Source: Candidatus Saccharimonadales bacterium
Lineage (GTDB): Bacteria; Patescibacteriota; Saccharimonadia; Saccharimonadales; Saccharimonadaceae
Direction of reading: 5' to 3'
Length of the DNA stretch: 64,000 nt
Assembly (NCBI GenBank): GCA_039928925.1
Contig: JBDSSF010000003.1
Location: forward strand, 186,001 to 250,000
A program made the translations under genes and the position numbers. The stretch's first letter is position 1, and each line of letters opens with the position of its first letter. This document shows, one piece after another, positions 3,360 to 22,216 of this stretch. The notes beneath the pieces are model-generated. The model saw only the letters and a program-made list of their open reading frames with translations. It did not search any database and was not told the DNA's origin.

Positions 3360-3512
3360 ACATTGCTCCTTTCACAATTTACACCATATATATTCTATTA
3401 TAGCAATAATACTCAAAAAGTCTACCCCCCGCCTCTGTAGTGTGCTACAATAATTCGAGCACGGGAGAGTATTTAGTAGTAATATTAATCATCGAACGTG
3501 AGCATATCATAC

Positions 3513-3605
3513 GGAGGGGTACCCAAGTGGCTTAAGGGGATGGTTTGCTAAATCATTAGTCTGGGGAGACCTGGAGCGGGAGTTCGAATCTCCCCTCCTC
3601 CGCCA
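3513..3605 (+). tRNA. tRNA-Ser (anticodon GCU)
   Basis: Acceptor GGAGGGG pairs with CTCCTCC (one G-U), then G and an encoded CCA. The anticodon loop TTGCTAA gives GCT. A long variable arm and the T loop TTCGAAT are present. Confidence 0.95.
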
Positions 3606-3613
3606 AGCATAAG

Positions 3614-3638
3614 CACTCTGCACTCGCAGGGTGTTTTT
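3614..3638 (+). terminator. Terminator of tRNA-Ser(GCU)
   Basis: CACTCTGC and GCAGGGTG pair (one G-T) around ACTC, followed by TTTTT. Confidence 0.75.
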
Positions 3639-3660
3639 GTTTGTATTTTTTTGAGAACTA

Positions 3661-3689
3661 TTGACAAATTATAAATAATTATGTATAAT
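3661..3689 (+). promoter_or_regulatory. Consensus promoter of GC-rich cassette A
   Basis: TTGACA (3661-3666) and TATAAT (3684-3689) are perfect consensus boxes with a 17-bp spacer. The leader carries a small stem-loop (TGTCT-ATTTG-AGACA) shortly after the expected start of transcription. Confidence 0.85.
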
Positions 3690-3756
3690 ATACATCGATG
3701 TCTATTTGAGACACCGAGCTTTCTCCACTCGACAAAGGAGACTAGGAGTTAACAAC

Positions 3757-4203
3757 ATGAACGCTGTGATGGAGAAGGTCACGTTCAATGAGACGCTGTC
3801 CCAGTCCTACCTGCCGCACCGTGTGGTGAAGCAGGCCGTACTGGTTCCCGTTCCCGAGGGCGTGGAGGCCATCATCAATGCCGAGTGGGGCTCACCCCAG
3901 TCGTTCGTCGGCCCGTGGTACGCCATCTACACCGACGGCAACGTCATCTACGGGTCGGGCAAGCAGGAGTTCGAGGAGACCCACGGAACCACCGACGAGG
4001 TGGAGAACGGGTACTTCAAGAACACGCCCATCGAGGGCTACTGCTACGAAGGCCACACTGCTCGCGTCGTCACCGTCCTGTCCAGCGGCACTGTCGAGAC
4101 CGAGAACTCGGTCAACAACGGTGACTGGCTCGTGCGGTGGCCTCACGGTGAGGTCGGCGTCATGACGGACGAGAAGTTCCGCAAGCTGTACCAGGTCGGC
4201 TGA
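3757..4203 (+). CDS. GC-rich PGDYG-like hypothetical protein
   Basis: A 148-residue soluble protein with strongly GC-ending codons (ACC GAC GGC AAC GTC ATC TAC), unlike the AT-leaning genes around it. The middle reads VGPWYAIYTDGNVIYGSGKQ. The C-terminal part, SVNNGDWLVRW then GEVGVMTDEKFRKLYQ, resembles the PGDYG module (GD, aromatic or hydrophobic, PGGE, F..RY) seen more clearly in the AT-rich gene at 4511. The start is the ATG preceded by AGGAG; an earlier in-frame start has no support. It is preceded by a consensus promoter and followed after 5 nt by a second GC-rich ORF. Function unknown; foreign origin is inferred from codon use. Confidence 0.75.
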   Translation: MNAVMEKVTFNETLSQSYLPHRVVKQAVLVPVPEGVEAIINAEWGSPQSFVGPWYAIYTDGNVIYGSGKQEFEETHGTTDEVENGYFKNTPIEGYCYEGHTARVVTVLSSGTVETENSVNNGDWLVRWPHGEVGVMTDEKFRKLYQVG

Positions 4204-4208
4204 GTCTC

Positions 4209-4349
4209 GTGAAGCGTATGCTCAGGAGGCTCAAGCACGAGATTTTCGGACACCCCCGCGAAGATATGATCTTCGGCGACATGGTCGAAGGCAACACCTG
4301 CACATCTTGCGGGTTGAACTTCAAGAGGGCCGACATCACGATCGGCTAG
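4209..4349 (+). CDS. Small GC-rich protein with one CxxC motif
   Basis: A 46-residue ORF starting at GTG, 5 nt after the previous stop. It begins KRMLRRLKHEIFGH, which is basic and helical, and ends NTCTSCGLNFKRADITIG with one CxxC, so a zinc-binding or redox role is possible but unproven. Codon third positions are mostly G or C, matching the upstream gene, and this supports real coding in this frame. The two ORFs share one promoter and one terminator (4362-4413). No recognised family. Confidence 0.6.
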   Translation: MKRMLRRLKHEIFGHPREDMIFGDMVEGNTCTSCGLNFKRADITIG

Positions 4350-4361
4350 CCAACTCAAACA

Positions 4362-4510: not shown

Positions 4511-5035
4511 ATGGAACCAAAACCAAAAAACGAACCAGTAGTAGCCTACGAAAAACTAGATCTATCAACAGAAGAGTACACGGCTAAACTTGCCGAAGCT
4601 CCAGTATTTGCTAAGAAAGCGGAAGTACATGCAGTTGTCGCGGTCGGCGGGGAGAAAATCGAGACGGTACTTGCGAATGGTATTGTAGAGACAGTCAACA
4701 TAGCTAATTCTGGTGATGCCATTATTACCAACCCTGGTGGTGAACAATATATCATTCCAGCTGAGACATTTACAAAACGCTATGAAGCGACAACTGAAGA
4801 AGGTGTTTTCCGTGCAAAAGGCATGGCACGTGCACTTAAGAATGATACAGGTGCACCAATTGAGATTACGGCTCCATGGGGAGAATCACAGTTTGGAGAC
4901 GAGAACTGTTTGATTGCTACAGTCTTTGATCCAGATAGCCCTGACCAAATTGGTTCTGACCGATACATCATTGGTGCGGACGAGTTTGCAGATACCTACG
5001 GTCCAATCGAAGAAGTATTGGCTGATGAAGTTTAA
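4511..5035 (+). CDS. PGDYG-domain protein
   Basis: A 174-residue acidic cytosolic protein in native AT-rich codons. Residues around 60-95 read GIVETVNIANSGDAIITN, PGGEQYIIP and ETFTKRYE, the hallmark of PGDYG proteins (GD, PGGE.Y, F..RY). A second, weaker copy follows: APIEITAPWGESQFGDENCL and SDRYIIGADEFADTYG, so the protein appears to be a tandem of two related halves. The ATG has AGAGGA upstream. It lies downstream of a GC-rich gene ending in a similar module, on its own promoter and with its own very strong terminator. The PGDYG family has no established biochemical function, so none is claimed. Confidence 0.75.
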   Translation: MEPKPKNEPVVAYEKLDLSTEEYTAKLAEAPVFAKKAEVHAVVAVGGEKIETVLANGIVETVNIANSGDAIITNPGGEQYIIPAETFTKRYEATTEEGVFRAKGMARALKNDTGAPIEITAPWGESQFGDENCLIATVFDPDSPDQIGSDRYIIGADEFADTYGPIEEVLADEV

Positions 5036-5088: not shown

Positions 5089-5132
5089 CCAAATAAAGTA
5101 GACACTACGGCTGTAGTGTCTACTTTATTTGG
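5089..5132. terminator. Very strong bidirectional terminator
   Basis: A 20-bp perfect inverted repeat (5089-5108 and 5113-5132) with a 4-nt loop lies between the converging PGDYG and panD genes. Confidence 0.85.
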
Positions 5133-5198: not shown

Positions 5199-5573
5199 CT
5201 ATTGATCCACACGTTTAACGACAACGTTTGTTACCATATTTTTTTCATCAACAAACACCACCTTTTGCTCAATGTGGCTCGCTTCACTACGCTCAAGTTG
5301 CTCTAGTGAAAGCACGATAACTTCGTCACCTGGTTGGAAAATTCTTGCCGGGCACCCATTTAGACATATTTCGCCTTCGCCTTGAACACCGGGAATGACA
5401 TATGTCTCCCAGTGTGCGGCATTAGACATATTGTTGATGTGTACAAGCTGAAATGGAACTATTCCAGACGCTTCCATAAGTAAAGGATCGATAGTGACAC
5501 TTCCTTCGTAATCGAGTCTGGCTCCTGTTACATGAACGCGGTGTAATTTTCCTGTGCAAACTAGGATCGACAT
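5199..5573 (-). CDS. panD: Aspartate 1-decarboxylase (pyruvoyl enzyme)
   Basis: A 124-residue proenzyme that self-cleaves to form a pyruvoyl group and converts L-aspartate to beta-alanine. The N-terminus GKLHRVHVTGARLDYEGSV matches PanD: Lys9, Tyr22, the Gly24-Ser25 cleavage pair and Tyr58 are at the same numbers as in the E. coli enzyme. Residue 54, an Arg in E. coli that contacts the substrate carboxylate, is His here. NGCPARIFQPGDEVIVLS matches the conserved C-terminal strand. The ATG has AAGGAGG 4 nt upstream. It is the last gene of a three-gene unit (fibre, ATP-grasp, panD). No pantothenate pathway genes are nearby, so the beta-alanine may serve the neighbouring ligase rather than CoA; that is inference. 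Confidence 0.88.
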   Translation of the reverse strand: MSILVCTGKLHRVHVTGARLDYEGSVTIDPLLMEASGIVPFQLVHINNMSNAAHWETYVIPGVQGEGEICLNGCPARIFQPGDEVIVLSLEQLERSEASHIEQKVVFVDEKNMVTNVVVKRVDQ

Positions 5574-5584
5574 GCTACCTCCTT

Positions 5585-6748
5585 TTATCTGACTTGTTTT
5601 TCTTGTAGAACTAATTGTACCTTTTTATTACTCTCCGGTTCATAAAATTGGGGCTGAGAGTTCGCATAGCTCATCATTTTAGCATGCAGTAGCGGTAATG
5701 ATGTACGGAGACTATCGTGTACTATATGGGTTGTTTCTGGACTGACGGCTAAGTAATATGGTGGCTCACATATATCTTTATTCTTTTCCATGAAATCGCC
5801 TTCATCATCTACAGAAACTTTAGGTGTCTTCCAATATTCACCCAAAAAATGAACACCATGTTTATATTTGTTGTATGTTAGCAAAAAAGCGACACGCATC
5901 GTCGGCTGGTACGATCTATTTTCTAAATGTGGTAGCTTAATTAAATCTGACGTAACAAACTCTTCCACGATGAAACTATCAAAGGTATCGTTTTGCCAGG
6001 CACTATATGCGGCATCTTCAATATCTGCCAAGATACCTTTTTTTGTAATGATATAGTGAAGTACTTTATCTAGTTCTGGGAGTGTAACAATAATGACACC
6101 TTTGCCCATAAACTCACCTCTTGGTTTAATGACGAACGTATCGCACTGAAGGTCACTAGCAATTTTGGATGCGAGGTTTTTGGTGTACGCCTTTTTATAA
6201 TTGCCCCACTTTGGCTTAAGAGTCGAAAGCATTTCGTCGCCCGTAAATAAATCGGTCATAAGGTACTTATCGATCCAAAACGGGAAGCTCGATTTATCCA
6301 TAACAACCATTCCAGGTATTCGTGTTTCGAAATCTGTGATAACTGATAATTGTGACCAACTCGTATATAAAAATCCTTGATAAGAAGAAATATCATGAGA
6401 ATTTTTAGTAGACTGTTTGGACTTTTCTCTAAAAGTCACATCAGAAAATAGCTGAATGAGGTCTTTAGGGTTTTTCCATGACGGTGATCTGGCAAGCACA
6501 TCTATTAGGTTTTTATCTGCCATGCCATCACTAAGTATCCAACCATTTTTATTATATGTAGATAATACACTCAGTAGTTCTGTGTGTATTGAATCTTCAA
6601 GCGGGTTTCGGTAAGCATCACCATTAAACAACGAGAGACTTGCCTGTTGAATTTCGCAAATTTTCACGCCTTGCGTTGCACTATATTTTAGATCCGCAAC
6701 CATGTAGCAAACATCGACGGGAAATTTATCTAACAGGTCTGTCGACAT
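5585..6748 (-). CDS. ATP-grasp ligase-like protein
   Basis: 387 residues. The C-terminal half has ATP-grasp features: CDTFVIKPRGEFMGKGVIIV (a strand with Lys and a Gly-rich loop), SFIVEEFV (the E..V segment that clamps the adenine), and YQPTMRVAFLL with Arg for phosphate binding. The N-terminal half (VCYMVADLKYSATQGVKIC) is not recognised. ATP-grasp enzymes join a carboxylate to an amine or thiol through an acyl phosphate. The ATG overlaps the stop of the upstream fibre gene (TAATG), and panD follows after 11 nt, so the three are probably cotranslated. A ligase acting on beta-alanine is the natural guess but is unproven; it could equally modify a peptide. Confidence 0.6.
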   Translation of the reverse strand: MSTDLLDKFPVDVCYMVADLKYSATQGVKICEIQQASLSLFNGDAYRNPLEDSIHTELLSVLSTYNKNGWILSDGMADKNLIDVLARSPSWKNPKDLIQLFSDVTFREKSKQSTKNSHDISSYQGFLYTSWSQLSVITDFETRIPGMVVMDKSSFPFWIDKYLMTDLFTGDEMLSTLKPKWGNYKKAYTKNLASKIASDLQCDTFVIKPRGEFMGKGVIIVTLPELDKVLHYIITKKGILADIEDAAYSAWQNDTFDSFIVEEFVTSDLIKLPHLENRSYQPTMRVAFLLTYNKYKHGVHFLGEYWKTPKVSVDDEGDFMEKNKDICEPPYYLAVSPETTHIVHDSLRTSLPLLHAKMMSYANSQPQFYEPESNKKVQLVLQEKQVR

Positions 6749-7530
6749 TAGTCGAGTTTAATAACGTTTAGTATGGGGTTACTGACGGTGACATAATAAC
6801 TACTTGAACTATTGTTAATAAGCATATTAAACGTAACTGGTGCGTTCGTCACGGTAACCATCTGTGAAACGTTCAGTGAAGCCGAAACTGCAAAGCCATA
6901 TATAAAACCAGTTTGATCGGCAGGAGTCCATGAAGAGTGCGTCGTTGCCGGAAAAGGCTGTACCTGTTGCCATGAACTTGTTCCATGTTGCTGAGATTCA
7001 AAACCAGCCGTAAAAGATAACGAGGTTGGATCAGTAGTTTCAAAAATGTATTCCTGTACAATGCCAGAAACGCTCATTAGATATGTGCCATTGGTTGAAA
7101 TCGTTATCGTTGAACCACTTACTGTGATTGCAGATCCTACATTGACTGAAGCTGTATTAAAGCTAATAGCCGACTGACCACTTGGTACACTATTCGACGA
7201 TGGGTAATCATTTGAGTAATACGAGGCGTATGCGGGTGACTGTGCTGCTGGTACGGTGGGAGTTGCCCATGTACCATCACCTCTTAAAAAGGTTGTACTC
7301 GTTGCAGAGCCAGTTGCTAATTCATCTGTAGGCACGACACCTGAATTGTTTAGCCCAGCCACGCCCGATGGTTGCCCAATCTGGTTAGAGGTGATACCAC
7401 CCGCTTGAGTGACCGCGCCGGGCTTGATTTTACCAGTACTATCATGAGATACCTCAAGGTATTCATTGAGGATTTCTCCCCAGGTATTTGTATCTTCACC
7501 AGGAATCGGTAGTCGTTTATCAGTACTTAT
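6748..7530 (-). CDS. Fibre-like surface protein with apparent AUA start
   Basis: Read from an ATA at 7528-7530, the product is 260 residues. The N-terminus (STDKRLPIPGEDTNTWGEIL) matches the N-terminus of the gene at 17813-18523 (ATPQRLPI then VWGDILRQYL) position for position, which fixes the start. No in-frame ATG, GTG or TTG lies between the upstream TAA and residue 57; AAGG lies 7 nt before the ATA. Residues 60-80 carry the phage-fibre phrase STTFLRGDGTWATP. The C-terminal 150 residues (SVNVGSAITVSGSTITI, TNGTYLMSVSG) resemble a C1q/BclA-type beta-sandwich. Its TAA overlaps the ATG of the ATP-grasp gene. A likely cell-surface or secreted adhesin; ligand unknown. Confidence 0.65.
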   Translation of the reverse strand: MSTDKRLPIPGEDTNTWGEILNEYLEVSHDSTGKIKPGAVTQAGGITSNQIGQPSGVAGLNNSGVVPTDELATGSATSTTFLRGDGTWATPTVPAAQSPAYASYYSNDYPSSNSVPSGQSAISFNTASVNVGSAITVSGSTITISTNGTYLMSVSGIVQEYIFETTDPTSLSFTAGFESQQHGTSSWQQVQPFPATTHSSWTPADQTGFIYGFAVSASLNVSQMVTVTNAPVTFNMLINNSSSSYYVTVSNPILNVIKLD

Positions 7531-8256: not shown

Positions 8257-8811
8257 ATGAACAGGTATTTGCGACTTCCGTCCCGGGCAATTATTATGCT
8301 TGTTGGCTTTGTAGTTGCATTTATTCCAACGACAGTTATGGCCTCGCCGTTTGGTCAGGGTGTTTTTGGTGCAAACGTTCCGTTTGGTTCCGTAACAAGT
8401 CTCGCCATTAACCTCGGTGGGAATGTATCACTTAGCCTTACGACAAGTGGCGCAAATCTTGCAGGTACGGGATCGCATGTTATCACGGTTACTTCAACAG
8501 ATGTTGTTGGGTACCAGTTGTTTGCACGAAGCAATGGTAGTACGAATATGACTGGTGCGAGTGCGACCATCCCAGCAAGTGCGAACAGTACACCAGCAGC
8601 ACTCAGTCTTAATTCGTGGGGATTTAATACTGACGGTAGTGCAAACTTTGTTGGCATGACGACAGTTCCTCGTCTTATTAAAGATACGAGTGGACCTGCA
8701 AAGACTGGTGATACAACAACGGTAACTTACAAAGCATTCACTGATTCGACGCAGGCCTCAGGCCAATACTCTACAGCTGTTATTTATACTGTTGTTGCCG
8801 AGAATCAGTAG
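8257..8811 (+). CDS. Secreted beta-rich surface protein
   Basis: 184 residues. RLPSRAIIMLVGFVVAFIPT followed by TVMASP forms a signal peptide. The mature part is Ser/Thr/Gly-rich beta sequence (VTSLAINLGGNVSLSLTTSG, HVITVTSTDVVGYQLFARS) ending YSTAVIYTVVAENQ, the closing strand found in WxL-like and related adhesin domains, though no W-x-L motif is visible. The start is the second ATG: TATAAT lies 8 nt before it, whereas the first ATG is too close to the -10. The 3' end overlaps the converging gene at 8780 by 32 nt. It probably belongs functionally with the surface locus on the other strand. Confidence 0.65.
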   Translation: MNRYLRLPSRAIIMLVGFVVAFIPTTVMASPFGQGVFGANVPFGSVTSLAINLGGNVSLSLTTSGANLAGTGSHVITVTSTDVVGYQLFARSNGSTNMTGASATIPASANSTPAALSLNSWGFNTDGSANFVGMTTVPRLIKDTSGPAKTGDTTTVTYKAFTDSTQASGQYSTAVIYTVVAENQ

Positions 8812-9682
8812 CCTGAGATAATTTCTTTTTTGCAGTATGTCGTCGTATGAGTATACTTAAGCCCCAGCTACCCAATATGACGACTGCGTAAAACCAAAGA
8901 GGCGTATAGACAACCAGTCCCTCGCTTATAATTGGTTTTGACGAGTCTGTACTATATCCATACGTTGCCTTGTATATGCCGGGTAATAAAGGTGACGGTA
9001 TGTCATCGGTGACTCTGCGAGTAGTTCCCGGTAGGAGAATGTGAGTTGCTGTAACGGTACTTTTGTCGGTCCATAAGCCGCTAATTGAGCCTGTAGTCGT
9101 TGCTGTGTAGTGAACGTTGCCGGTGTTATTGATATCGAGACTGAAAGGAATAACATTCCCAACCACAAATCCACTAATTGAGTGAGAAACCAGCTTATTT
9201 GTTTGAATCGTTGGGCCATTAACTGTAATGTATAGTGGAGTTGCGACCTGAACTTGGCTAGATATACTCCCCTGTTTTAATGTCGCGCTTGCAACGATTG
9301 TGTAGTACTTACCGCCCGGTGCTGTTTTACCAGGGGGTGTGACGCTATATGCAACCTGCGCACTTTTATTTGGCTGAAGCTGAACGACTGTCTGCGTAAA
9401 ATGTAGCCAATTTTCTTTAACATCACTAAAAATATAGTTATATGAGTAGTCGGCGACCGAAAACTGCTCAACAGATAATGTCACCGTAAGGGGTGCAGTT
9501 GTGAAGTTTGCAATTGTGACATTTCCTTGAACTGTTTTTCCCGCGTCAACTTCAAGAAATTGCTGTGGTGGGGATATTGCGAGGCCTTTATTTGTAGGTG
9601 TTTGCGCAAAAGTAGTACTAGGAAATAGGCTAACCAGTAGACTGGCGAGTAAAAACGTCATGAATAGCAAACGACGCTTCAC
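8780..9682 (-). CDS. DUF916-like exported protein with C-terminal anchor
   Basis: 300 residues. An N-terminal signal peptide ends near TTFAQTP. Two Ig-like beta domains follow: GLAISPPQQFLEVDAGKTV with a NVTIANFTTAPLTV strand, then QVATPLYITVNGP. A membrane helix (LWFYAVVILGSWGLSILI) and a basic tail (RRHTAKKK) end the protein. This layout, and the phrase 'SP..f.v.pG.t..g.v.i.N', resembles DUF916 proteins that pair with WxL surface proteins in Firmicutes. The start is GTG with GGAGGG 9 nt upstream. It is the last gene of the minus-strand surface operon and resembles the tandem pair at 18800-20946. Likely role: holding or displaying surface polymers; inferred. Confidence 0.65.
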   Translation of the reverse strand: MKRRLLFMTFLLASLLVSLFPSTTFAQTPTNKGLAISPPQQFLEVDAGKTVQGNVTIANFTTAPLTVTLSVEQFSVADYSYNYIFSDVKENWLHFTQTVVQLQPNKSAQVAYSVTPPGKTAPGGKYYTIVASATLKQGSISSQVQVATPLYITVNGPTIQTNKLVSHSISGFVVGNVIPFSLDINNTGNVHYTATTTGSISGLWTDKSTVTATHILLPGTTRRVTDDIPSPLLPGIYKATYGYSTDSSKPIISEGLVVYTPLWFYAVVILGSWGLSILIRRHTAKKKLSQATDSRQQQYK

Positions 9683-9694
9683 AAAGTTACCCTC

Positions 9695-10294
9695 CTAACT
9701 ACGTTTAACGAGCTGAACTTGGATGTCAGTAACGACATTATTGTAATGTTTAATGGCAAAAGCTTGAGTTTCCTGATTACGGGTTTGCCATTCTGGCGCA
9801 ATAACGTAGCCATAGCCAAAGTCAAAATCACATGAAACTGGGTAGTGACCAAGTTGATTATCGATGCGCCACTGCTTGTTAACATATAGGAAACTAGCTT
9901 CAGATATAGCTCGCTGGTGCGTAGGGTCCTGCCATGCCCGCATACTTGAGTAGTATGGACAGACAATACGTGCAAAGCCCTTAATAGGAATATTTGGATT
10001 GCTTGGATCAAATTCTGCAGGTTTTAGTATTCGATAGATCTCGTCGAAGAATTGGAAGAATGGATCATTAAAACTATCACCATGTGGAATATGTTCAACA
10101 AAGTTAGAACATTCGATTTCATCGACTGAATTATCTGCAAATTGTGTCCATGGGAATTTCAAGAGGTCCTGTACATAATCGACACCATTTGTCTTGATAA
10201 GATCGACGCCTTTGAAACCTTCCGGTTTGTGCTCGCCTGAACCAAGCGATAATCTTAACGGTTCATTACTTGTCTCAATTTTTTTAGTAGCCAT
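9695..10294 (-). CDS. Class I SAM-dependent methyltransferase
   Basis: 199 residues. The SAM-binding motif LRLSLGSGEHKPEGFKGVDL (glycine-rich loop then acidic residue) lies near residue 15-35. DNSVDEIECSNFVEHIPHG is the usual post-motif segment in small-molecule and glycan methyltransferases, and FDEIYRILKP is the helix before the final sheet. The start is the ATG with AAGGAG 7 nt before it, directly after the stop of the glycosyltransferase, so the two are an operon. Given its place among fibre genes, a surface glycan or fibre protein is a likely substrate; that is inference. Confidence 0.75.
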   Translation of the reverse strand: MATKKIETSNEPLRLSLGSGEHKPEGFKGVDLIKTNGVDYVQDLLKFPWTQFADNSVDEIECSNFVEHIPHGDSFNDPFFQFFDEIYRILKPAEFDPSNPNIPIKGFARIVCPYYSSMRAWQDPTHQRAISEASFLYVNKQWRIDNQLGHYPVSCDFDFGYGYVIAPEWQTRNQETQAFAIKHYNNVVTDIQVQLVKRS

Positions 10295-10305
10295 ATATAG
10301 TCTCC

Positions 10306-11031
10306 TTACCACATAATCTGATTAGTTGCATCGTAATGTCCCACACGTACACGACTGTCGCAGGCAAATTTATAGCCAAGTTCTCGGGCACGTTGGAAAA
10401 ACCACAAATCCTGTGTAAATACCTGGACGCCACCTTGCGGCGTAATCTCTTGTTTTGTTTTAAACCACTCACCATAGGTAAATCGTTTGTCTTTTAGCAT
10501 CTCTGTCCTAAAAAGTGTAAAGCCCATACCAAGACCATTACATGGTGTGACGGCATCCGGAGCTGGAATTTGTGGAATGAAGTTTAAGGGCATTTCATTT
10601 GGGTTACCGTAACACATTGGCTGTCCAGCTTCACCTTTTGTCCAGTAGAGTCCACCAACGGCGTCGTACTCATCAATGGATTCATATAATTTTACGAGCC
10701 CATCAGCTGGCGGCGCATTATCTTCTTCTAACGTAAGAATGAATTTAAAGCTGCTAAGATCAGGGTTTTCAAGAATCATCTTAATAACCTGATTATATGC
10801 TTCACCTACCTCCATACCCTCCATGAAGAGAGGGCCTAGGACTTTTTGATTCATCGGACGTATCATTCCCTGCCAACTCTGTACGATACGAGCTGAAATC
10901 ATGCCGCGAGTTGGGCAGATGATAATTGTCGATAAGTCTCGGTATGTCTTTTCTTTTTCGAGGCGTGTCGAATAATCACTTGAGTTGTGGATGCCAGAAT
11001 TATCGGGGACGAGTATTTGTGGTTTTGTCAT
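10306..11031 (-). CDS. GT-A type glycosyltransferase-like protein
   Basis: 241 residues. LSTIIICPTRGMISARIV is the first Rossmann strand and loop of a GT-A fold; FKFILTLEEDNAPPADGLVK supplies the acidic metal-binding cluster (EEDN in place of DxD). AVGGLYWTKGE and CNGLGMGFTLFRTEML resemble the acceptor loop and the 'G.n.lfRr' segment of family 2 enzymes; FACDSRVRVGHYD supplies a late His-Asp. There is no membrane segment. It precedes the methyltransferase by 11 nt and follows fibre genes, so glycosylation of the surface proteins is plausible. Exact sugar and acceptor are unknown. Confidence 0.7.
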   Translation of the reverse strand: MTKPQILVPDNSGIHNSSDYSTRLEKEKTYRDLSTIIICPTRGMISARIVQSWQGMIRPMNQKVLGPLFMEGMEVGEAYNQVIKMILENPDLSSFKFILTLEEDNAPPADGLVKLYESIDEYDAVGGLYWTKGEAGQPMCYGNPNEMPLNFIPQIPAPDAVTPCNGLGMGFTLFRTEMLKDKRFTYGEWFKTKQEITPQGGVQVFTQDLWFFQRARELGYKFACDSRVRVGHYDATNQIMW

Positions 11032-11058
11032 AAGGCTGTCTTAACATTATACTTGTAT

Positions 11059-11733
11059 CTAGAATTTATACCATCCCAAGGTGTTAGAAATTGGAGCTGC
11101 CGCCTGAATTTCTATAGCTGCCATTGTTGGTTTTTGACCACTTGGTGAAGTTAAGCCATATGTTTGTGATCCGGGTGTGTTTGCTCCTTGATAGGCTGAA
11201 TATGTGACATAGCTTCCAGTACCTGACTTATCAAAAAAGTCCTCCTGGACTGCACTTGACCTGTAGGCTGGGGCTCCAGGTGCTACTGCGTTCCAGTCAG
11301 CACTTATCCAAGACAGGATACTATTTGTACCAGTAGTTGTTAGCGTACTTGACGGAGCTGTACCTCCTGTTATATTCTCATTTGCAGCAGGGGTTCCCGC
11401 AAGTACCGCACCCGACCATCGCTCTACTGTGAGGTTATGCCACCCCGATGTACCTGAAAAAGTGACCGCAATAGTCATTGATCCCGGCGAGCCAGATATG
11501 TTAGCTGTAAATAAAGATACCGGTGTTTGACTGCTCGATGCATTACTTGCACGGAGTGTATAGGATTGGCTACCGCCCGAGGCAGTTCCGATAGTTGGCG
11601 TAGCCAGAGACTCACTGGCCACTTTAATAACATTGACCTCGCCGTTAGATGGAGTAAATGAAGGGGTAGTTAGTGTTGAAAGATCACTTGCGGTTGAGCG
11701 AACTGCATAAGATGTGATAAGTGTTGGATTTAT
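11059..11733 (-). CDS. Surface fibre/adhesin domain protein with apparent AUA start
   Basis: Read from the ATA at 11731-11733 the product is 224 residues starting with NPTLITSYAVRSTASDL. The first conventional in-frame start is a GTG (11622), 37 codons in, without a ribosome binding site; GAAAGGG lies 8 nt before the ATA and the upstream stop lies 10 codons before it. The body is Ser/Thr/Gly-rich beta sequence (GGSQSYTLRASNASS, MTIAVTFSGTSGWHNLTVER) ending GQKPTMAAIEIQA, as in carbohydrate-binding or fibre beta-sandwich domains. It sits between a LamG-like gene and the glycosyltransferase. Function as an adhesin is inferred from context. Confidence 0.6.
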   Translation of the reverse strand: MNPTLITSYAVRSTASDLSTLTTPSFTPSNGEVNVIKVASESLATPTIGTASGGSQSYTLRASNASSSQTPVSLFTANISGSPGSMTIAVTFSGTSGWHNLTVERWSGAVLAGTPAANENITGGTAPSSTLTTTGTNSILSWISADWNAVAPGAPAYRSSAVQEDFFDKSGTGSYVTYSAYQGANTPGSQTYGLTSPSGQKPTMAAIEIQAAAPISNTLGWYKF

Positions 11734-11789
11734 ATACTTTACCCTTTCAGCTTTATGATATTAAAAATCTGTCCATACTGGCGTTAACA

Positions 11790-13160
11790 CTATGGCCCGC
11801 TAACCCAGCTAGTCGTTGCTTGAACTGACGCAGGCCCAATTGGATACATGTTGCCGCTAGTAAACGCAATATCGTCCCAGTATGCATTCATCGTACCCTG
11901 GGTGCTACTAATTTTACCAAATCGACAATCGATAATGGGCGTCGTACCCGTATTTACATTGGACACGCTATAACTATCTAGGGGTGTTAAGGAATCACCA
12001 AGGAAATACTGGGTGTTGATTGTTCCATTTGTTGTAGAAGTTCCTACGGTACACTGTTGCTCAATTCTATACCACGTCGCTGTAGTGAGTGGTGTAGTTG
12101 AAAAGGCTTTTATGGCTGCTCCAGTCGAGTCGCATACTGACAGTATTCCAGTGTTACCTATTTGGACTTTAGCCACGGAACTAGTGGCGCTCCTCGTGTA
12201 AGCGATGTCTGTCGTTGCGCTTGACATTGAATTTAGATAAACATAGAATCTGTATGCGCCGGTCATATCATTGACCTGATTGTTGAATGCGAGAACAAAC
12301 CAGTCAGTAGAAGTGGAACAAAATGAATAATATGATCTGTTACCATGCATAGTAGGAAAGTTACTATAAATGACAGAAGCACTACCATTGAGCGAAACAA
12401 TATCAAACGCCGTACCAGACCCGCCGCCCGAGTTTGCCCTCGTTAAACCTGTTGAGTTTGGCTGACCTTCGGCTGTATTTTGATGGTACTTTGATATATA
12501 TGGATTCGGCCCAATATAGCCAATATCTTGGAGCGACATATCATCTAAGTAGTAATCTATATTGGCAGTTGAAGCAACATTTCCCCAGATACCTGCATTT
12601 ATATCATCTCCACGTGTGTTAATTGTGGCAGGAGTAGTGATGGTTTCGGTAGGCGTTTTACCGTCTTTTGTTAAATATATCTTAAGAACGATCTGGCCTG
12701 CGCTGACGTTTGAAAAAAGCATCATCTCAGTCCTGAACCACTGACCGAGTGGAATACTCGTCGACGACGTTGAGACAGTTGTTCCTGAAGAGTCCTTAAC
12801 AATAAGCTTATTACCGCCAATACCAAATCCTCCAATAGTTTGTATTGATGCATTAGTATATTCAAAAATGAAAGGAGTGTTGACTGGCGTGGTTGAAAAA
12901 TACCAATATGACTGCATGTACATGGTTTTTCCAGGCTGGCTGACAGCAGTACTCCAATACATGTAAGCATTCGACCCAGTACTACCAGTTGTAATATGGT
13001 ATGAGAGTGACCCATGAGCAGAAGTAAGAGACGAATATGTCATTGTAGTAGCACCGCCACCTGTGACGTTATTCCAGGGCTGACCACTATCGCCACCAGA
13101 GTTAGCTGTCGTGATCGTGGTACCATCAGTTCCACCCTCTGCGGTATTAATTAAAATCAT
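11790..13160 (-). CDS. Two-repeat LamG-like surface protein
   Basis: 456 residues with two tandem repeats of about 220 residues, each opening with the phrase NTAEG(G/Q)..GT..T.ANSGG.SG and closing with a 'YYLDD.SLQDI' or 'YWDDIAF' strand. The pattern of beta strands and the late Asp-Asp pair fit a concanavalin/LamG-like jelly roll that binds glycans. No signal peptide or membrane segment is seen, so export would rely on a dedicated route or assembly on a phage-like fibre. A TATAAT in the 68-nt gap upstream could be an internal promoter; no clear ribosome binding site precedes the ATG. The same repeat appears twice in the next gene. Confidence 0.65.
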   Translation of the reverse strand: MILINTAEGGTDGTTITTANSGGDSGQPWNNVTGGGATTMTYSSLTSAHGSLSYHITTGSTGSNAYMYWSTAVSQPGKTMYMQSYWYFSTTPVNTPFIFEYTNASIQTIGGFGIGGNKLIVKDSSGTTVSTSSTSIPLGQWFRTEMMLFSNVSAGQIVLKIYLTKDGKTPTETITTPATINTRGDDINAGIWGNVASTANIDYYLDDMSLQDIGYIGPNPYISKYHQNTAEGQPNSTGLTRANSGGGSGTAFDIVSLNGSASVIYSNFPTMHGNRSYYSFCSTSTDWFVLAFNNQVNDMTGAYRFYVYLNSMSSATTDIAYTRSATSSVAKVQIGNTGILSVCDSTGAAIKAFSTTPLTTATWYRIEQQCTVGTSTTNGTINTQYFLGDSLTPLDSYSVSNVNTGTTPIIDCRFGKISSTQGTMNAYWDDIAFTSGNMYPIGPASVQATTSWVSGP

Positions 13161-13228
13161 ATACAGTTTTTCTATTTAAGACAATCATTTCAGTATTAAT
13201 TATATCTTGTCTGAACTTTGGAAAAGTA

Positions 13229-15220
13229 TTAAATTCCACCACGGATTACTCCTATAAGCGCACTCAGGTTACCGGCTGCACTGGCAGTAAATGTAAAACT
13301 AGCTGTTGCACCTGTATTAACTTGTGATGTACTCCCTATGCTACCAAAAGATGTTGGCGCACTGGTCCATCCAGCTGGGTATGTAAATGCTGAAAAGCCT
13401 GTATTACATACACCAGCTAAAATGAGCGAGTTAGTCCCGGTAAGACTAAGACTCGGAACCGTCACACTTGCTCCTGAGCTATTTGTAGCGGTTTGGAACG
13501 TATCAACAAACGGGTTACCAGAGCTAGGTCCGCCAGTGATACGTATGGCATTAGACCATGTACTAGTCGCTGCCACACCACCAACTGTAGCGGCAGTTGG
13601 GCTATAGGTACCTGTATCGCTTCCTGCCGCATACTTATAGAGCCATGCACCTACTGTTACTGCCGACCCTGTGTTTGAAACAACAAAACTGGCAGTTGTA
13701 AATGAGGGTGCGCTAAATGGAGACGAAACGGGACTTGTACCTGTACTATACGATGCCCATACGTACATCAAAACAAGTGACCCTGCAACAACTCCGGACG
13801 GCACTACTCCATTGAGACTTGGTGTACCGCCACCGTTAGAAGCAACGATCGGTACTGCATATGCAGTGTTTAGCCATGAGTTTGTAGAATTTGCTGGTCC
13901 AATATACGATGTATCCTGTACGGAGTAGTCATCGATATAAAAGGTTGCCCAATCTCCGGTATTAGATAGCTTACCGACTGCAACGCTCGTTGAGTTTGAG
14001 GTTGTCGTATTGAGTGTACCGCTTGAAAAATCGTAAACAGGGTTAGTCGTCGTATCTTCTATGTAGACGCTATTGTGAACGTAGCCATTTGAGGTCGTCG
14101 TACCGGTAATAACAGTTTGTTCCACGCGAAGCCAGGTATTTAGAGGGAGAGTATTTACTGCAGTACTACCGGTAACAGTACCAGAATTATCTTGGGTAAA
14201 AAATTTACCTGCAGTTGTAACTGCTATGTTACACATTAATATACTGGAGTAGGTTCGGATGAATTGAGTTGCTGCCGTAGGATAATCAGTGAAGCATACA
14301 TACACACGCTGTGAAATGACCGAGGTATCACTGGTGTACCATGTAAATGATGAGCCTGTTGCACTAGCGGATGTGAAATTATATGCCATCATTCCAGTAT
14401 TGGTCGGAGCATTTGAAAAAGTAATGGAGCCACCCGTCCCCGGTGTGACAAGATCGAATGGCAGACCAGATGCACCGCCGCTATTGAGGCTCGTTACGGC
14501 TACGCCATGCGTCCCACCCTCGGCTGTATTGTATGTATTTACCTTGCGTGGTGTCGCTGAATATGAGCCGATCGCATCACTACTTTCATCACTAAAAGCA
14601 ATATCGTCATAGTAAGCATTTAAGGTTCCAGCAGTATTATACTTACCAAATGCTACTCGGTATAACCAAGTCGTTCCATTGTTAGCAGTCGTACTCGAAA
14701 GTGCTTGAATAGCTGTTTTTGAATCACTGAGATAGTACTGTAACTTAGTTGTGCCAGTTGTGGCCGTGGCAACAACAGCCTGACACTCTATGCGGTACCA
14801 AGTATTAGCAGTTAGTGCACTGGTTGCAGTAAAAAGCACCGTGCTTGCTGAATCTCTAACGACTAACTTATTCGTTGCATCAAGACCGATCGTAATCACC
14901 ACTGCGAACGCAGTGCTTTGGATAGCCGCCAGATCGACTGCGGCCCCAGGAAGTGTTGGCATGAATAGGTAAAATCGAGTCGCTATAGTTGCATTGCCAA
15001 CAGCCCCAAGATAACATCGCACTGAATCCCCTGAACCACCGACCACATTATATGAAAGCGTACCATGTGCGCGGTTTGAACTTGAAAATGCTACTGTACC
15101 CGCACCGACAAGTCCGACGGCAGAGGTAAATGCATCTCCGGAAGCACCACCACTGTTTGCCTGGGTCACAGCCGTACCATTCGTCCCGCCCTCAGCCGTA
15201 TTGATTTTGATCATTGGCAT
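13229..15220 (-). CDS. LamG-like repeat surface protein with C-terminal adhesin domain
   Basis: 663 residues. Two LamG-like repeats (MIKINTAEGGTNGTAVTQAN and, near residue 225, KVNTYNTAEGGTHGVAVTSL) each end in YYDDIAF or FYIDDYSVQD. A third, different beta domain covers the last 220 residues (SLNGVVPSGVVAGSLVLMYV, WLYKYAAGSDTG, SLSLTGTNSLILAGVC). There is no signal peptide. GGAG lies 11 nt before the first ATG, within the gap after the upstream fibre gene. The shared opening phrase makes this and the neighbouring gene products of internal duplication. Likely a large fibre or adhesin; glycan binding is inferred from the fold guess. Confidence 0.65.
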   Translation of the reverse strand: MPMIKINTAEGGTNGTAVTQANSGGASGDAFTSAVGLVGAGTVAFSSSNRAHGTLSYNVVGGSGDSVRCYLGAVGNATIATRFYLFMPTLPGAAVDLAAIQSTAFAVVITIGLDATNKLVVRDSASTVLFTATSALTANTWYRIECQAVVATATTGTTKLQYYLSDSKTAIQALSSTTANNGTTWLYRVAFGKYNTAGTLNAYYDDIAFSDESSDAIGSYSATPRKVNTYNTAEGGTHGVAVTSLNSGGASGLPFDLVTPGTGGSITFSNAPTNTGMMAYNFTSASATGSSFTWYTSDTSVISQRVYVCFTDYPTAATQFIRTYSSILMCNIAVTTAGKFFTQDNSGTVTGSTAVNTLPLNTWLRVEQTVITGTTTSNGYVHNSVYIEDTTTNPVYDFSSGTLNTTTSNSTSVAVGKLSNTGDWATFYIDDYSVQDTSYIGPANSTNSWLNTAYAVPIVASNGGGTPSLNGVVPSGVVAGSLVLMYVWASYSTGTSPVSSPFSAPSFTTASFVVSNTGSAVTVGAWLYKYAAGSDTGTYSPTAATVGGVAATSTWSNAIRITGGPSSGNPFVDTFQTATNSSGASVTVPSLSLTGTNSLILAGVCNTGFSAFTYPAGWTSAPTSFGSIGSTSQVNTGATASFTFTASAAGNLSALIGVIRGGI

Positions 15221-15238
15221 ACTAGCTAGATCTCCAGC

Positions 15239-17806
15239 CTAGTACGTCGCACTATAAATTGCATGATAAAAAGCAGCTCTCATTGCATTGGATGCTTGCG
15301 TGTTATTAATTGCAGTAAGGGGTATAGTTGCTGGTAATCCTGCCGTGTTTGCACTGTATATACCCTGACCGAGATACACGTCGCGACCCGCACTCGTACT
15401 GCTGCCGATGACACCAAGAACGCCAGTTGCTATGATTTGGTTATTCCCCATCATTGTCATGCCCGTAGATGCAAATGTTGAAGCACTTGAAATAAGTGCT
15501 CCGACCCAGTATTCTCCAGGTGTAATATTAACGTTCATCGGAACGGTCATTTGCCTGATACCAGTTATGGTTTGAGTGTACTGCGCATTGGCTGTATTGC
15601 CATAAGAAAAGCCGTTATTCGCAGTACCAGAAGACATAAGAGAAAGAGTTGAGCCGTTTAGTGTATACACGCCCATAGATAGTGAATAGTTTGCAGAAGC
15701 CGTGGTTGCTGACGTAAAAGTCGATACTGTCAGTGAAACAGCGATCTTTGCTGCAGTACCCTGTACATTGTATGGAATATATTGGTGCTGGAGGGATAGA
15801 GAGCCGTTAGCCATAGTTCCGATAGATGAGAAAACAGCATTTGGTGCTTCCCATCTTGCAGCTAAGGCCCCCGTGCCATTATTGCCTGATATCGATATAG
15901 TATTTCCGCTCGTAAGGAGCGTTATGCCATTGAGTCCTACGAGGTTTGAAAGTTGAGGAACTGCAACACTAAATGCCTGGGCTGTTCCTGTTCCTGAGTT
16001 AATAGTGATTGCACCACCACCTTCAACAATATTAACAGTACCACTGGTATAGGTTGTATTTGAATTTGCTAGGGCAACCCCGCCGCTGCTTGTTCCTGCA
16101 CCTGGAAGTGACCAACCACTAACGTAGCTACTGTCAAAAATACCCCATTGATCAAGGTAGAACGTGTCATTAACAGGCACGCTCGTTGCAGTTAACCACT
16201 GTGGGACAGCATAGGCAGCGGTTGCAGGTGCAGCACCAGTCACAGTTAGTAATGTAAACGTCGTACTGTTTACGTTTACTGGACTACCGGTGATGTTTGA
16301 AATGTATGCACCAGCTGATGTGTAGAAAGATATTTGCGCCTGACATTGTGCAGTGTTACCAATACCACGTTTTACAGATACAGTTGCCGTATATGTTTGG
16401 CCAGGAGTGACAGATGCACCATCAGTCGCGTTATTGGTTATAAATACATACGGGAAGCCTACAGACAGGTTAGTTACAAGAAGGCTTGTCGTGCCTTCAG
16501 CTGCAGTCGTATTGTCTATTGCAAGTGACGGGTTAGGAGCAACACTTGAGTTAGCCGTGTACTGACTTGTCGTGCCTGTGACACCTGCTGCTGATGCGCT
16601 CTTCATAAAGTTAGTAGGCGCCGCCGCGCTACCACCAGCAGAGATGGTAATAATATTACCACTACCAGCCGTTGCCTGGCTTAGGGTAACGTTGCTACCA
16701 CCAGCAAAAATGAGTTGGTTAGAGGCAAAACCACTCACACCACTCGTGTTACCGTTTGTGCTCATACCAGCACTAAAGCCACCACCTGCACCGCCAGAAA
16801 CGGTGATTGTTGCACCAATACTATTTGTACTTTGGCTAAGTGTGATATTGTTACCACCGACGAGGACAAGTCCATTGGTATTCTGGCCACTAACGCCACT
16901 CGTATTTCCTATAGTAGAAATACCTGCATTAAACATTGCCGGCGCACCGATACTGATCGTATTACCGTTTGTAGAGATACTGATAGCACCTGTTCCAGAG
17001 AAGACAGAGGTTTGTGGTACTGAGAAATTAAACGATTGTCCTGTTGTTGATGCGATTGTCATTGCACCACCTGCGACAACGAGGTTCGCGTTTCCACTGT
17101 TATAGGTAGTTTGAGAGTTTGCTATGCCAATACCACCACTTGCACCAGATAGAATTATTGAGCCGTTAGTATAGCCAACGCTGACACCACCATAGCCGTT
17201 AATGCTAAGCGAACGAGCATCTAGGGTGGCGGTACTGTTAAAGAAAGTATTGTTTCCAGCGAACATTCCCAGGGTTTGGTTTGTCTGGACGGGCACACCC
17301 ATACTAACGGTATTACCGTTAGTTGAAATACTAAGGGCACCTGTTGCGGATATGCTTGAAGTTTGCGGTACAGAGAAGTTAAGTGACTGTCCGACACCAC
17401 TTGCGATGGTGAGTGCACCACTTGCGTTGAAGTTAGCTGAGCCTGTTGAGTAGGTTGTGCCACCTCCGACGATCGCAACACCACCACCAGCCCCACCAGA
17501 GATCGTAATTGCGTTACCGGCCTGAGATAGTGTAATGTTGTTTCCGCCGGCCAATGTCAGCGTGCCGGAGCTAACTTGTGCCATTGCACCAGCGGTATTT
17601 CCCGAGAGAGTGATGTTATGGACATTTGATGTCTGAAGAGTTTGATTTGCCGCTGAGATACTGACAGTTGCAGATGCACCATTAATGCTTTGTGACAGTG
17701 TGACGTTATTTCCACCGGCAAAGACAATCCCACGAGAAACAGTTCCGGTTGTACCCGAAGTGTTCCCGATGTTGCTCATGCCAAATTTAGGAGGAATGTA
17801 CGTCAT
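15239..17806 (-). CDS. Large phage-tail-fibre-like repeat protein
   Basis: 855 residues. The first 400 are a degenerate repeat built around 'GGNN(I/V)TLSQ' (at least four copies) and 'FNFSVPQTS' (several copies), the low-complexity beta-helix style of phage tail fibres. Residues near 400-560 form a carbohydrate-binding-like domain (ASVTPGQTYTATVSVKRGIG, TFYLDQWGIFDSSYV). The C-terminal 200 residues (YSLSMGVYTLNGSTLSLMSS, NITPGEYWVGALIS) resemble a receptor-binding beta domain. No signal peptide or membrane helix. It follows the 236-residue fibre gene after 6 nt. Best read as the shaft and tip of a surface fibre; the organism's use of it is not known. Confidence 0.7.
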   Translation of the reverse strand: MTYIPPKFGMSNIGNTSGTTGTVSRGIVFAGGNNVTLSQSINGASATVSISAANQTLQTSNVHNITLSGNTAGAMAQVSSGTLTLAGGNNITLSQAGNAITISGGAGGGVAIVGGGTTYSTGSANFNASGALTIASGVGQSLNFSVPQTSSISATGALSISTNGNTVSMGVPVQTNQTLGMFAGNNTFFNSTATLDARSLSINGYGGVSVGYTNGSIILSGASGGIGIANSQTTYNSGNANLVVAGGAMTIASTTGQSFNFSVPQTSVFSGTGAISISTNGNTISIGAPAMFNAGISTIGNTSGVSGQNTNGLVLVGGNNITLSQSTNSIGATITVSGGAGGGFSAGMSTNGNTSGVSGFASNQLIFAGGSNVTLSQATAGSGNIITISAGGSAAAPTNFMKSASAAGVTGTTSQYTANSSVAPNPSLAIDNTTAAEGTTSLLVTNLSVGFPYVFITNNATDGASVTPGQTYTATVSVKRGIGNTAQCQAQISFYTSAGAYISNITGSPVNVNSTTFTLLTVTGAAPATAAYAVPQWLTATSVPVNDTFYLDQWGIFDSSYVSGWSLPGAGTSSGGVALANSNTTYTSGTVNIVEGGGAITINSGTGTAQAFSVAVPQLSNLVGLNGITLLTSGNTISISGNNGTGALAARWEAPNAVFSSIGTMANGSLSLQHQYIPYNVQGTAAKIAVSLTVSTFTSATTASANYSLSMGVYTLNGSTLSLMSSGTANNGFSYGNTANAQYTQTITGIRQMTVPMNVNITPGEYWVGALISSASTFASTGMTMMGNNQIIATGVLGVIGSSTSAGRDVYLGQGIYSANTAGLPATIPLTAINNTQASNAMRAAFYHAIYSATY

Positions 17807-17812
17807 GCTTCT

Positions 17813-18523
17813 TTAGATTATATACCAGTTACTACCGTTTGAGACGACGCGGACAGCAAAATATTGACTATCGAGCGAGAATGTCGTTGCACCATCAATC
17901 GTGTCACTAGCAGATCGGCCAACAACACATGTATTGGCCGAAGTATCAATGCGCTTGACGTAAAAATTATATCCAGTAAAAGACGCGGCGAGTGGAAGAG
18001 TTATTGTTGTATTGCCACTAGCAGCATCGGCAAAAATAATAACGTCGCTTCCTGTGATTGTGTAGTTACTAATCTTTGTAACTGTCGCAGTTGTAGCGTC
18101 AGCATCGGTCCATGAAGGTAGTCCTCCAGCGACACGGAGCGTCTTTCCGGTTGCTCCAACCGGTAAGCGTACGAAGTTACCACTACTGTCTCTATAGTGT
18201 AGGTCACCCGTTGCGCCGGAACTATCATCATAAAGTGCTACTTTTTTACGGACAGCTCCAGTTGTAATTGTAAAGTAAAGTGAATCTGTGTTAAATTCAG
18301 CTGCACCAACTTCTGCTGTTGTCATGAGCGTACCAGACGTGAGCTTTAGCGGCGCAGTACCTGCAGCTGCAGTACCTGCACGAACAGTAATTGTTTTGTG
18401 GCCACCATTTATGGCATTATCGGTGCCATCATCGTAGTGCTCTTTCAAGAGATACTGGCGAAGTATGTCACCCCATACGCCATCATCGTTATTAACGATT
18501 GGTAATCGCTGCGGAGTAGCCAC
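17813..18523 (-). CDS. Fibre base protein with RLPI...WGDIL module
   Basis: 236 residues starting at GTG (ATPQRLPIVNNDDGVWGDIL). The first 30 residues are the same module found at the AUA-start gene at 6748-7530, suggesting an attachment domain shared by fibres. The middle (HYRDSSGNFVRLPVGATGKT, GGLPSWTDA) is typical of phage tail proteins. The end is a Thr/Ser-rich beta domain (IFADAASGNTTITLP, DTIDGATTFSLDS) like tail-fibre tips. It begins 2 nt after the small gene at 18526 and is followed by the large fibre, so they are one operon. Function as fibre base is inference from position and the shared module. Confidence 0.65.
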   Translation of the reverse strand: MATPQRLPIVNNDDGVWGDILRQYLLKEHYDDGTDNAINGGHKTITVRAGTAAAGTAPLKLTSGTLMTTAEVGAAEFNTDSLYFTITTGAVRKKVALYDDSSGATGDLHYRDSSGNFVRLPVGATGKTLRVAGGLPSWTDADATTATVTKISNYTITGSDVIIFADAASGNTTITLPLAASFTGYNFYVKRIDTSANTCVVGRSASDTIDGATTFSLDSQYFAVRVVSNGSNWYII

Positions 18524-18525
18524 GG

Positions 18526-18735
18526 CTACACCCCGAACTTACTTGAGCCAAAGCCGTGAGGCTTTGTTGTTGGTTTTACCTGAGTCATAGCACCTGGTGC
18601 AGCTTTCCATTTTTGGAGATTAGAAATTAAATTATTAATACCAATTATGGCAACTGCAAAACCTAAAACGTATCGCAAGAACTGCTTACGAGTTACCTCT
18701 TCCTTTAGAATTTGCGGGTTTAAAAATCTCTCCAT
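18526..18735 (-). CDS. Small membrane protein at the head of the fibre genes
   Basis: 69 residues: a charged N-terminus (MERFLNPQILKEEVTRKQFL), one hydrophobic helix (RYVLGFAVAIIGINNLI), and a short soluble tail rich in Lys, Pro and Gly. The helix after 'TRKQFLRY' looks like an uncleaved signal-anchor. A TTG one codon upstream is an alternative start. No ribosome binding site is close; AGAGG lies about 15 nt upstream. Its stop is 2 nt from the GTG of the fibre base gene, so it may anchor or export the fibre. No recognised family. Confidence 0.55.
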   Translation of the reverse strand: MERFLNPQILKEEVTRKQFLRYVLGFAVAIIGINNLISNLQKWKAAPGAMTQVKPTTKPHGFGSSKFGV

Positions 18736-18799
18736 CAACGAACACCGATTGCCTCTTATTATAAAAGTATAAGATACCGCTAGTGGTATGTCAAAATGA

Positions 18800-19861
18800 T
18801 TATGGCTTCAGAGAGACTTTTGGAGTCTTTTTGCGTCTAAAAAGGTGTATTATCTTACGAATAATTGACCAAAGTGCGAACACTACGAGTGCTAACACAA
18901 CGATACCACCAAGAATGATTTTCCATGGAATGACCCAGAATGTTACTTCACTTTCGATTGGGACATCACGGACACCGTCGTTATACACACCGACGAGTTT
19001 AGCGGTGTATTGTCCAATTCTAAAATCTGCAATTTTTGACCAGTCCCAACTCTCGCTCGTATTACCTGCATCATTTGTTTTAAACGTAGGAAATCCAGCC
19101 TCCCAGTTTGTTTTTAGTGTTCTACTACTACCAGGGAGGATATACCCTTTTGTTTCGTTAACGGGCAGCGTTGCAAGTGGACTAGGGCTCGAACTTGATC
19201 GTTGAATAAATATATTACCATAGGGCTGTACGATCGTGTTACCACTATTCTTAAAGCGAACACTAATTTGGCTCGGAAGATATTCGTATACCTGTTTGTC
19301 GGTTTCTAGCTCAACAACATCAAGTTTGCGCGTTGCGCCTGGCCTATCGACATTGAGTAGTGTGAAGACCGCGAGCGACCCTTTGATAAGGCGGCCACCC
19401 TCAGTTGGTTTTGGTGTATTTTGGCGGCTCACGATTAAAGCGAATGAATAGCTAAATCCTGCATCCTTTGGAAGGGCCACGTGGATTTTCTGTGTGAACC
19501 ACTGCCCTGGCTGTACGGTGAAGGACGGTTCACTGAAACTAATCCACTGATTAACATCTGGTGGTGCTGTATCGTTTAAGACAACACTACCATCGGTATC
19601 ATTTAACTTAAAGCTTCGTGGTTCAATCTTGAGGTCTTCTGCTGTTGTTCCTGCGTTTCTGATCTTTAGCTCGAGATCGGTTGTCTGCCCAGGCTTAACC
19701 GTTGCGACGAGTGGCGATGGGCTAACTTGTAGTGAAAACTCACCAGGTGCTTGGGCGGAAACTGTCGGAGGATGGAGAACAATAGCTGCTATTGATGCTG
19801 TTAACATAAGTAGTGCAGCCGGTAGCCAAATCAATAGGGGTCGTTTAAAGATTGTACGCAT
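18800..19861 (-). CDS. DUF916-like anchored surface protein (copy 2)
   Basis: 353 residues: a signal peptide ending near TVSAQAP; an Ig-like domain (EFSLQVSPSPLVATVKPGQT, DLELKIRNAGTTAEDL); a second domain (WFTQKIHVALPKDAGFSYSF); a third (YLPSQISVRFKNSGNTIVQP); and a final membrane helix (IILGGIVVLALVVFALWSI) with a basic tail. Its ATG shares the A of the TAA of the upstream copy (TAATG), so translation is coupled. It is a tandem duplicate of 19861-20946 with near-identical motifs (NETKGYILPG, RIGQYTAKLVGVYNDG). DUF916-type proteins in Firmicutes bind WxL proteins to peptidoglycan; a similar display role here is inferred. Confidence 0.7.
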   Translation of the reverse strand: MRTIFKRPLLIWLPAALLMLTASIAAIVLHPPTVSAQAPGEFSLQVSPSPLVATVKPGQTTDLELKIRNAGTTAEDLKIEPRSFKLNDTDGSVVLNDTAPPDVNQWISFSEPSFTVQPGQWFTQKIHVALPKDAGFSYSFALIVSRQNTPKPTEGGRLIKGSLAVFTLLNVDRPGATRKLDVVELETDKQVYEYLPSQISVRFKNSGNTIVQPYGNIFIQRSSSSPSPLATLPVNETKGYILPGSSRTLKTNWEAGFPTFKTNDAGNTSESWDWSKIADFRIGQYTAKLVGVYNDGVRDVPIESEVTFWVIPWKIILGGIVVLALVVFALWSIIRKIIHLFRRKKTPKVSLKP

Positions 19862-20946: not shown

Positions 20947-21021
20947 CTGTGTCTTAGTATAGCAATAGTCGCCGGATATCGGCGACTATTAATTGCTGTT
21001 ATCTTGTGATTGTACTGACTC

Positions 21022-22068: not shown

Positions 22069-22152
22069 TGTACTGTTTACCCCTATTGTTTTTTTGTATA
22101 TTTTTTCTGCATAAGAACATACTATTTTATATAGTAACTATCTTTGGGGTGT

Positions 22153-22181
22153 ATTATAACGCTAGTGTTTACATATTGCAA
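22153..22181 (-). promoter_or_regulatory. Promoter of the surface operon
   Basis: On the minus strand TTGCAA (rc of 22176-22181) and perfect TATAAT (rc of 22153-22158) are 17 bp apart. Confidence 0.75.
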
Positions 22182-22216
22182 CTATTTTTCCACAACGTTT
22201 TTTAATCAATAAATTT

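Follow-up and report, generated by a model that had tools for sequence, protein, structure and literature searches.

Known Systems Closest to the Locus

The enzyme that gives its name to the gene described here is aspartate 1-decarboxylase (PanD). Its Arg54 binds the beta-carboxylate of the substrate (PMC6969166, PMC10743139), the amides of Ala74/Ala75 contact the ligand carboxylate (PMC6969166, PMC10743139, PMC3314653), and Mtb PanD carrying the R54A exchange is inactive (PMC6969166). Databases also give the name aspartate 1-decarboxylase to PanD proteins that lack Arg54, and a phage record of the type with His at this position is annotated as panD. If this Arg54-less branch uses another substrate, these names are incorrect, and a viral gene that recurs has a function that has so far been overlooked. 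Literature searches on a pairing of PanD with ATP-grasp proteins, and on PanD in phage DNA modification, returned no relevant report in the literature covered. The PanD family itself is known; as far as the searches and the literature covered show, its Arg54-less, mostly viral branch and the ligase partners of that branch are new.

A PanD-Containing Gene Unit

The window, that is, the whole stretch of 64,000 nucleotides that was analysed, contains a compact unit on the minus strand in which a fibre-like gene is followed by a probable ATP-grasp gene and a PanD gene:

6748..7530, minus strand: fibre-like protein, from a reading of motifs (N-terminal RLPIPGEDTNTWGEILNEYL and TTFLRGDGTWATP)
5585..6748, minus strand: probable ATP-grasp ligase of 387 aa, from a sub-threshold match to PF14397 (E 0.006) and the remote homologue L047
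5574..5584, minus strand: 11-nt spacer AAGGAGGTAGC with AGGAGG, from the sequence
5199..5573, minus strand: PanD-family pyruvoyl decarboxylase, 124 aa, of the His54/Trp55/Pro75 type (profile, alignment and AlphaFold model)
5089..5132, minus strand: terminator-like hairpin with a perfect 20-bp stem and a 4-nt loop (folding compared with shuffles)

The ATG of the 387-aa gene shares one base with the stop codon of the fibre gene (TAATG), and the 11 nt between its own stop and the ATG of PanD include a perfect Shine-Dalgarno sequence. The hairpin behind PanD (-36.5 kcal/mol, z -6.7; none of 200 shuffles equally stable) is terminator-like, probably for both strands; a stricter terminator scan did not have it among its calls, and a promoter scan gave no excess above shuffles. 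A divergent gene at 7733 is the first one upstream of the fibre, and together with the hairpin it sets the limits of a compact three-gene unit. Fibre, ATP-grasp and PanD genes form one transcription unit; the coupling and the coordinates reported in a preliminary description of this DNA were both confirmed.

That description had placed the start of the fibre gene at 7530, where the codon proved to be ATA. No ATG, GTG or TTG occurs in this frame from its upstream stop down to a GTG at 7362, and the 5' end may be an ATA start at 7530 or the product of a frameshift upstream. Sequence motifs suggest that the protein is a fibre; its sole domain match is C1q (E 0.048), and the phages and viral contigs searched contained no homologues of it.

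Several other features of the window were recorded. A long series of fibre- or adhesin-like genes, almost all on the minus strand, occupies 8780-23814 and includes one glycosyltransferase-like and one methyltransferase-like gene with PHROGs family matches. At 27926-30481, an 851-aa protein matches PHROG 12710 (function unknown) very strongly (E 1e-206). A G+C-rich patch at 3500-4360 (0.52-0.53, compared with about 0.40 around it) holds a PGDYG-like gene (3706-4203), for which no match was found in phages, and an A+T-richer second PGDYG gene (4511-5035) adjoins it; this arrangement looks like separate acquisition.

The 387-aa protein is probably an ATP-grasp ligase. Residues 152-295 match PF14397 with 16.3 bits, below the curated threshold of 31.4 bits. 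The remote homologue, which is the only one and is 28% identical, matches the same region even more weakly. A PDB sequence search gave no meaningful match, and a single-sequence fold model was uninformative (pLDDT 32.8). Among 295 genomes of the family, one has a gene of this type; only weak matches were seen in the phylum sample, and no close relatives in phages, plasmids or viral contigs. The reading frame of the ligase proposed earlier is intact; its family assignment, with a sub-threshold profile match and one distant homologue, is weak.

An Arg54-Less Branch of the PanD Family

By both sequence and fold, the window protein is a member of the PanD family. It matches PF02261 over residues 1-114 (E 4.7e-39, 133 bits; cut-off 25) and misses the NCBIfam panD equivalog (TIGR00223) by one bit (105 bits; cut-off 106). 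This cut-off does not separate Arg54-less PanDs from others, since five further members of the clade score above it without having Arg54. An alignment-based AlphaFold model reached a pLDDT of 96.3, and its top matches among solved structures were 4crz, 4cs0 and 1pqe (TM 0.89-0.90). In the alignment, the positions needed for maturation and catalysis (Lys9, His11, Tyr22, Gly24-Ser25, Thr57, Tyr58 and Asn72) are all kept. His54 stands where Arg is usual, as had been noticed before, and is accompanied by Trp55 and Pro75.

The nearest cellular relatives of this protein were found in six genomes of one class (that of genome G540, here labelled Paceibacteria-type). Position 54 is F, L, S or T in these six proteins, and W55 and P75 are invariant. 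Together with the window protein they form one clade (support 97/85) whose members all lack Arg54 and have W55 and P75. When the clade alignment was used to scan IMG/VR, 39 contigs with PanD were obtained. The combination of H54 and W55, mostly with P75, occurs in about a dozen distinct IMG/VR loci and in Achromobacter phage 2-1. In a tree that included viral sequences, the window protein lies inside a 19-member set (98/89), 12 members of which are viral or phage proteins with H54 and W55; inner branching is uncertain, since the tree was built on 123 columns only. A chance mutation to His was ruled out, as His54 is conserved across the viral branch. The gene seems to have come to this genome from a viral or mobile pool.

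Absence of a Pantothenate Setting

The genome of the window (G000) comprises 984,634 bases (0.98 Mb) in 5 contigs and is 98.6% complete; judged by size and gene content, it belongs to a tiny, host-dependent bacterium of the Patescibacteria, of Saccharibacteria type. PanD is rare in its surroundings: one of the 295 family genomes has it, as do 10 of the 380 genomes of a phylum sample. Profile searches for PanC (PF02569) and CoaB (PF04127), which gave matches in 9/14 and 14/14 reference genomes used as controls, detected neither in the window genome. PanC is likewise missing from all nine further genomes of the phylum sample that carry PanD, and CoaB is present in just one of the PanD-bearing genomes. 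A role in CoA synthesis is very unlikely because both genes are absent and PanD is confined to one family genome; the earlier suggestion that PanD does not work for CoA here is almost certainly correct. The family name and the nearest structures, which are canonical PanD folds, would fit the ordinary vitamin role, in which beta-alanine from PanD would go into pantothenate, whether of the cell or of its host. With so complete a genome devoid of PanC and CoaB, with Arg54 lost and with no pan genes in the unit, this role is extremely improbable. Pantothenate supply by the window PanD was rejected on the absence of PanC and CoaB.

Amide-Forming Neighbours of PanD

ATP-grasp genes are neighbours of PanD in the window, in L025/L040 (where the frames overlap), in L032/L043 and in L105. 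Other loci have a PP-loop gene (L094, and L097 with TAATG coupling), an Amidoligase_2 gene (L110) or a CofE-like gene of the F420-ligase family (L064, L066 and L070) in this position; L100, L128 and L125 resemble these loci, but the resemblance comes only from motifs or from matches that are weak or of another kind. Thus, the proposed amide-forming partner of a PanD outside CoA synthesis recurs in unrelated loci and with other ligase folds. The window ATP-grasp profile has no meaningful similarity to those of L032 and L025, so there is no ground for treating these partners as one family. The exact pair of the window was seen in this genome only, and three viral PanDs with H54 (L095, L096 and L099) have no ligase in their neighbourhood. 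An 'ATP binding protein' adjoining panD in phage Jace was rejected as an ATP-grasp candidate, being an ABC plus GNAT protein. Amide-forming genes account for 13 of the 130 genes near PanD, compared with at least 3 among 120 distant genes (p 0.02), in a rough, post hoc comparison counted by hand and partly by eye after the pattern had been noticed.

Statistics on the association of PanD with its partners are likewise post hoc for the CofE-like gene, which is present in 6/6 Arg54-less Paceibacteria-type genomes versus 1/11 with an Arg54 PanD (Fisher p 0.0006) and 5/20 classmates without PanD (Fisher p 0.002). In five of the six Arg54-less genomes, the sole PALP-family gene adjoins PanD. The window genome has neither a CofE-like nor a PALP gene, and the ATP-grasp gene is the partner there. 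The preliminary description had considered that a conserved panD without the ATP-grasp partner would speak against its reading; the nearest relatives indeed lack a window-type ATP-grasp gene, while all six cellular ones have a CofE-like gene, which is of amide-forming type, so that the comparison counts against that reading only by half.

Recurrent neighbourhoods were observed in other loci. Arg54-less PanD is repeatedly found near a divergent CysK/M-like PALP gene (L064, L065, L066, L070 and L041); four of these loci also have the CofE-like gene, which in L065 is a few genes away. PAP2 phosphatase genes are present in L041, L042 and L065. A neighbourhood of PanD, PALP and CofE-like genes might represent an unknown small-molecule pathway. 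In L110, PanD adjoins the Amidoligase_2 gene and a thymidylate-synthase-like gene. L125 has an amidoligase-like gene that is similar by motif, and probably a 5-hmdU DNA kinase domain (assigned by eye). These two neighbourhoods may point to DNA base hypermodification.

In three viral contigs (L102, L104 and L115), fibre genes immediately precede PanD or its radical-SAM partner, with an overlap of 4 nt between fibre and PanD in L102. The fibres of L102 and L115 have an S74 chaperone, weak Hint-like matches were seen in all three, and the cassettes of L104 and L115 contain radical SAM genes. This gene order lends independent support to a link between PanD and fibres, though not to any mechanism.

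Possible Function of the Unit

Our preferred reading, held tentatively and at somewhat less than even confidence, is that a pyruvoyl decarboxylase of altered specificity supplies an amine to a partner ligase and not to pantothenate or CoA. PanD would cleave itself at Gly24-Ser25 and thereby become a pyruvoyl-dependent amino-acid decarboxylase; it is likely a working enzyme. Without Arg54 and with Trp55 and Pro75, the side-chain pocket appears rebuilt, so free aspartate is probably not the substrate and another amino acid or a conjugate would take its place, a proposal that we consider somewhat better than even. The neighbouring ATP-grasp ligase, which is reasonably likely to be the functional partner of PanD, would then join the amine by an amide bond to a small molecule or to the co-encoded fibre, and the product would not enter pantothenate or CoA. 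Counting against this reading are the sub-threshold ATP-grasp call, the presence of the pair in one genome and the lack of CofE-like and PALP genes in the window genome.

The preliminary description had taken beta-alanine to be the product, with the ligase making a beta-alanyl conjugate from it. In that case PanD would act on aspartate and His54 would replace Arg54. All remaining active-site residues are kept, the genes are coupled, and His54 is conserved in the viral members and able to carry a positive charge; this model retains some probability because His54 could still bind the carboxylate. Beta-alanine is nevertheless a doubtful product, since the Arg that binds the beta-carboxylate is gone, and aspartate may not be the substrate at all, because the branch as a whole has lost Arg54 and mostly has Pro for Ala75. 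In the relatives, position 54 is occupied by F, L, S or T, the corresponding Mtb variant R54A is inactive (PMC6969166), and with Pro75 the ligand carboxylate loses its contact to a backbone amide. The side-chain specificity of Arg54-less PanDs has likely changed or relaxed, and we regard the beta-alanyl model as unlikely. The preferred reading includes a narrower case, in which the ligase uses the PanD product to modify the upstream-encoded fibre, for example at a side chain or the C terminus with an amide-linked tag; confidence in the two therefore overlaps, and the fibre as target is plausible but clearly less likely than not. The TAATG coupling of fibre and ligase and the viral loci with PanD directly behind fibre genes speak for it; most other PanD loci lack a fibre, the protein is a candidate target with no modification site identified, and incidental cargo can also come to lie last in a block of fibre genes.

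It is also conceivable, though distinctly improbable, that the genes are recently gained passengers from a phage or plasmid that are not, or no longer, useful. Presence in 1/295 family genomes and 0/4 congeners, together with the non-canonical fibre start codon, would agree with this. Both enzyme frames are intact with the catalytic residues retained, however, and the unit has a well-formed Shine-Dalgarno sequence before PanD and a well-formed terminator-like hairpin behind it. A broader extension of the preferred reading, which we consider rather unlikely as a whole, is that PanDs with His54/Trp55/Pro75 are a separate enzyme family that phages and host-dependent bacteria have spread. They would decarboxylate an amino acid other than aspartate, or a residue that another molecule already carries. 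Together with interchangeable partners that form amides (ATP-grasp, PP-loop, amidoligase and CofE-like), they would modify fibres, DNA bases or small molecules. The repeated pairing of PanD with amide-forming enzymes of differing folds leads to a testable prediction, namely, amide-linked modifications in phages and minimal host-dependent bacteria.

Comparison with Known Systems

The window protein has the fold of aspartate 1-decarboxylase (PF02261, TIGR00223), with a TM of about 0.9 against E. coli PanD, and shares the Gly24-Ser25 self-cleavage site and the six other residues listed above. It differs in His for Arg54, Pro for Ala75 and Trp55, in its location outside any pantothenate setting and in an equivalog score one bit short. 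With the sugar-transfer-associated ATP-grasp family (PF14397), the 387-aa protein has in common an ATP-loop-like VIKPRGEFMGKGV motif and a FIVEE motif, but it scores far under the family cut-off and the C-terminal part of the profile is unmatched. The PanD module of Paceibacteria-type genomes (CysK/M-like PALP and CofE-like genes) also lacks Arg54, has a partner of amide-forming type and, in the two genomes tested (G410 and G540), is without PanC; unlike the window, it has F, L, S or T at position 54, and its CofE-like and PALP genes are missing from the window genome. Phage PanD-like proteins, encoded for example by panD of Achromobacter phage 2-1 and at 12 distinct loci on viral contigs, share H54, W55, N47 and mostly P75, and all except L126 fall within the supported clade of the window protein. 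Their surroundings differ from locus to locus, with genes for DNA polymerase, PP-loop enzymes, radical SAM enzymes or fibres but no window-type ATP-grasp gene. PanD is likewise found on mobile DNA in Enterococcus faecium plasmids, one of which (L036, NZ_CP041256.1) carries a complete panB-panC-panD operon between insertion sequences; these operons, however, are full panB-panC-panD sets with Arg54 and represent ordinary pantothenate synthesis.
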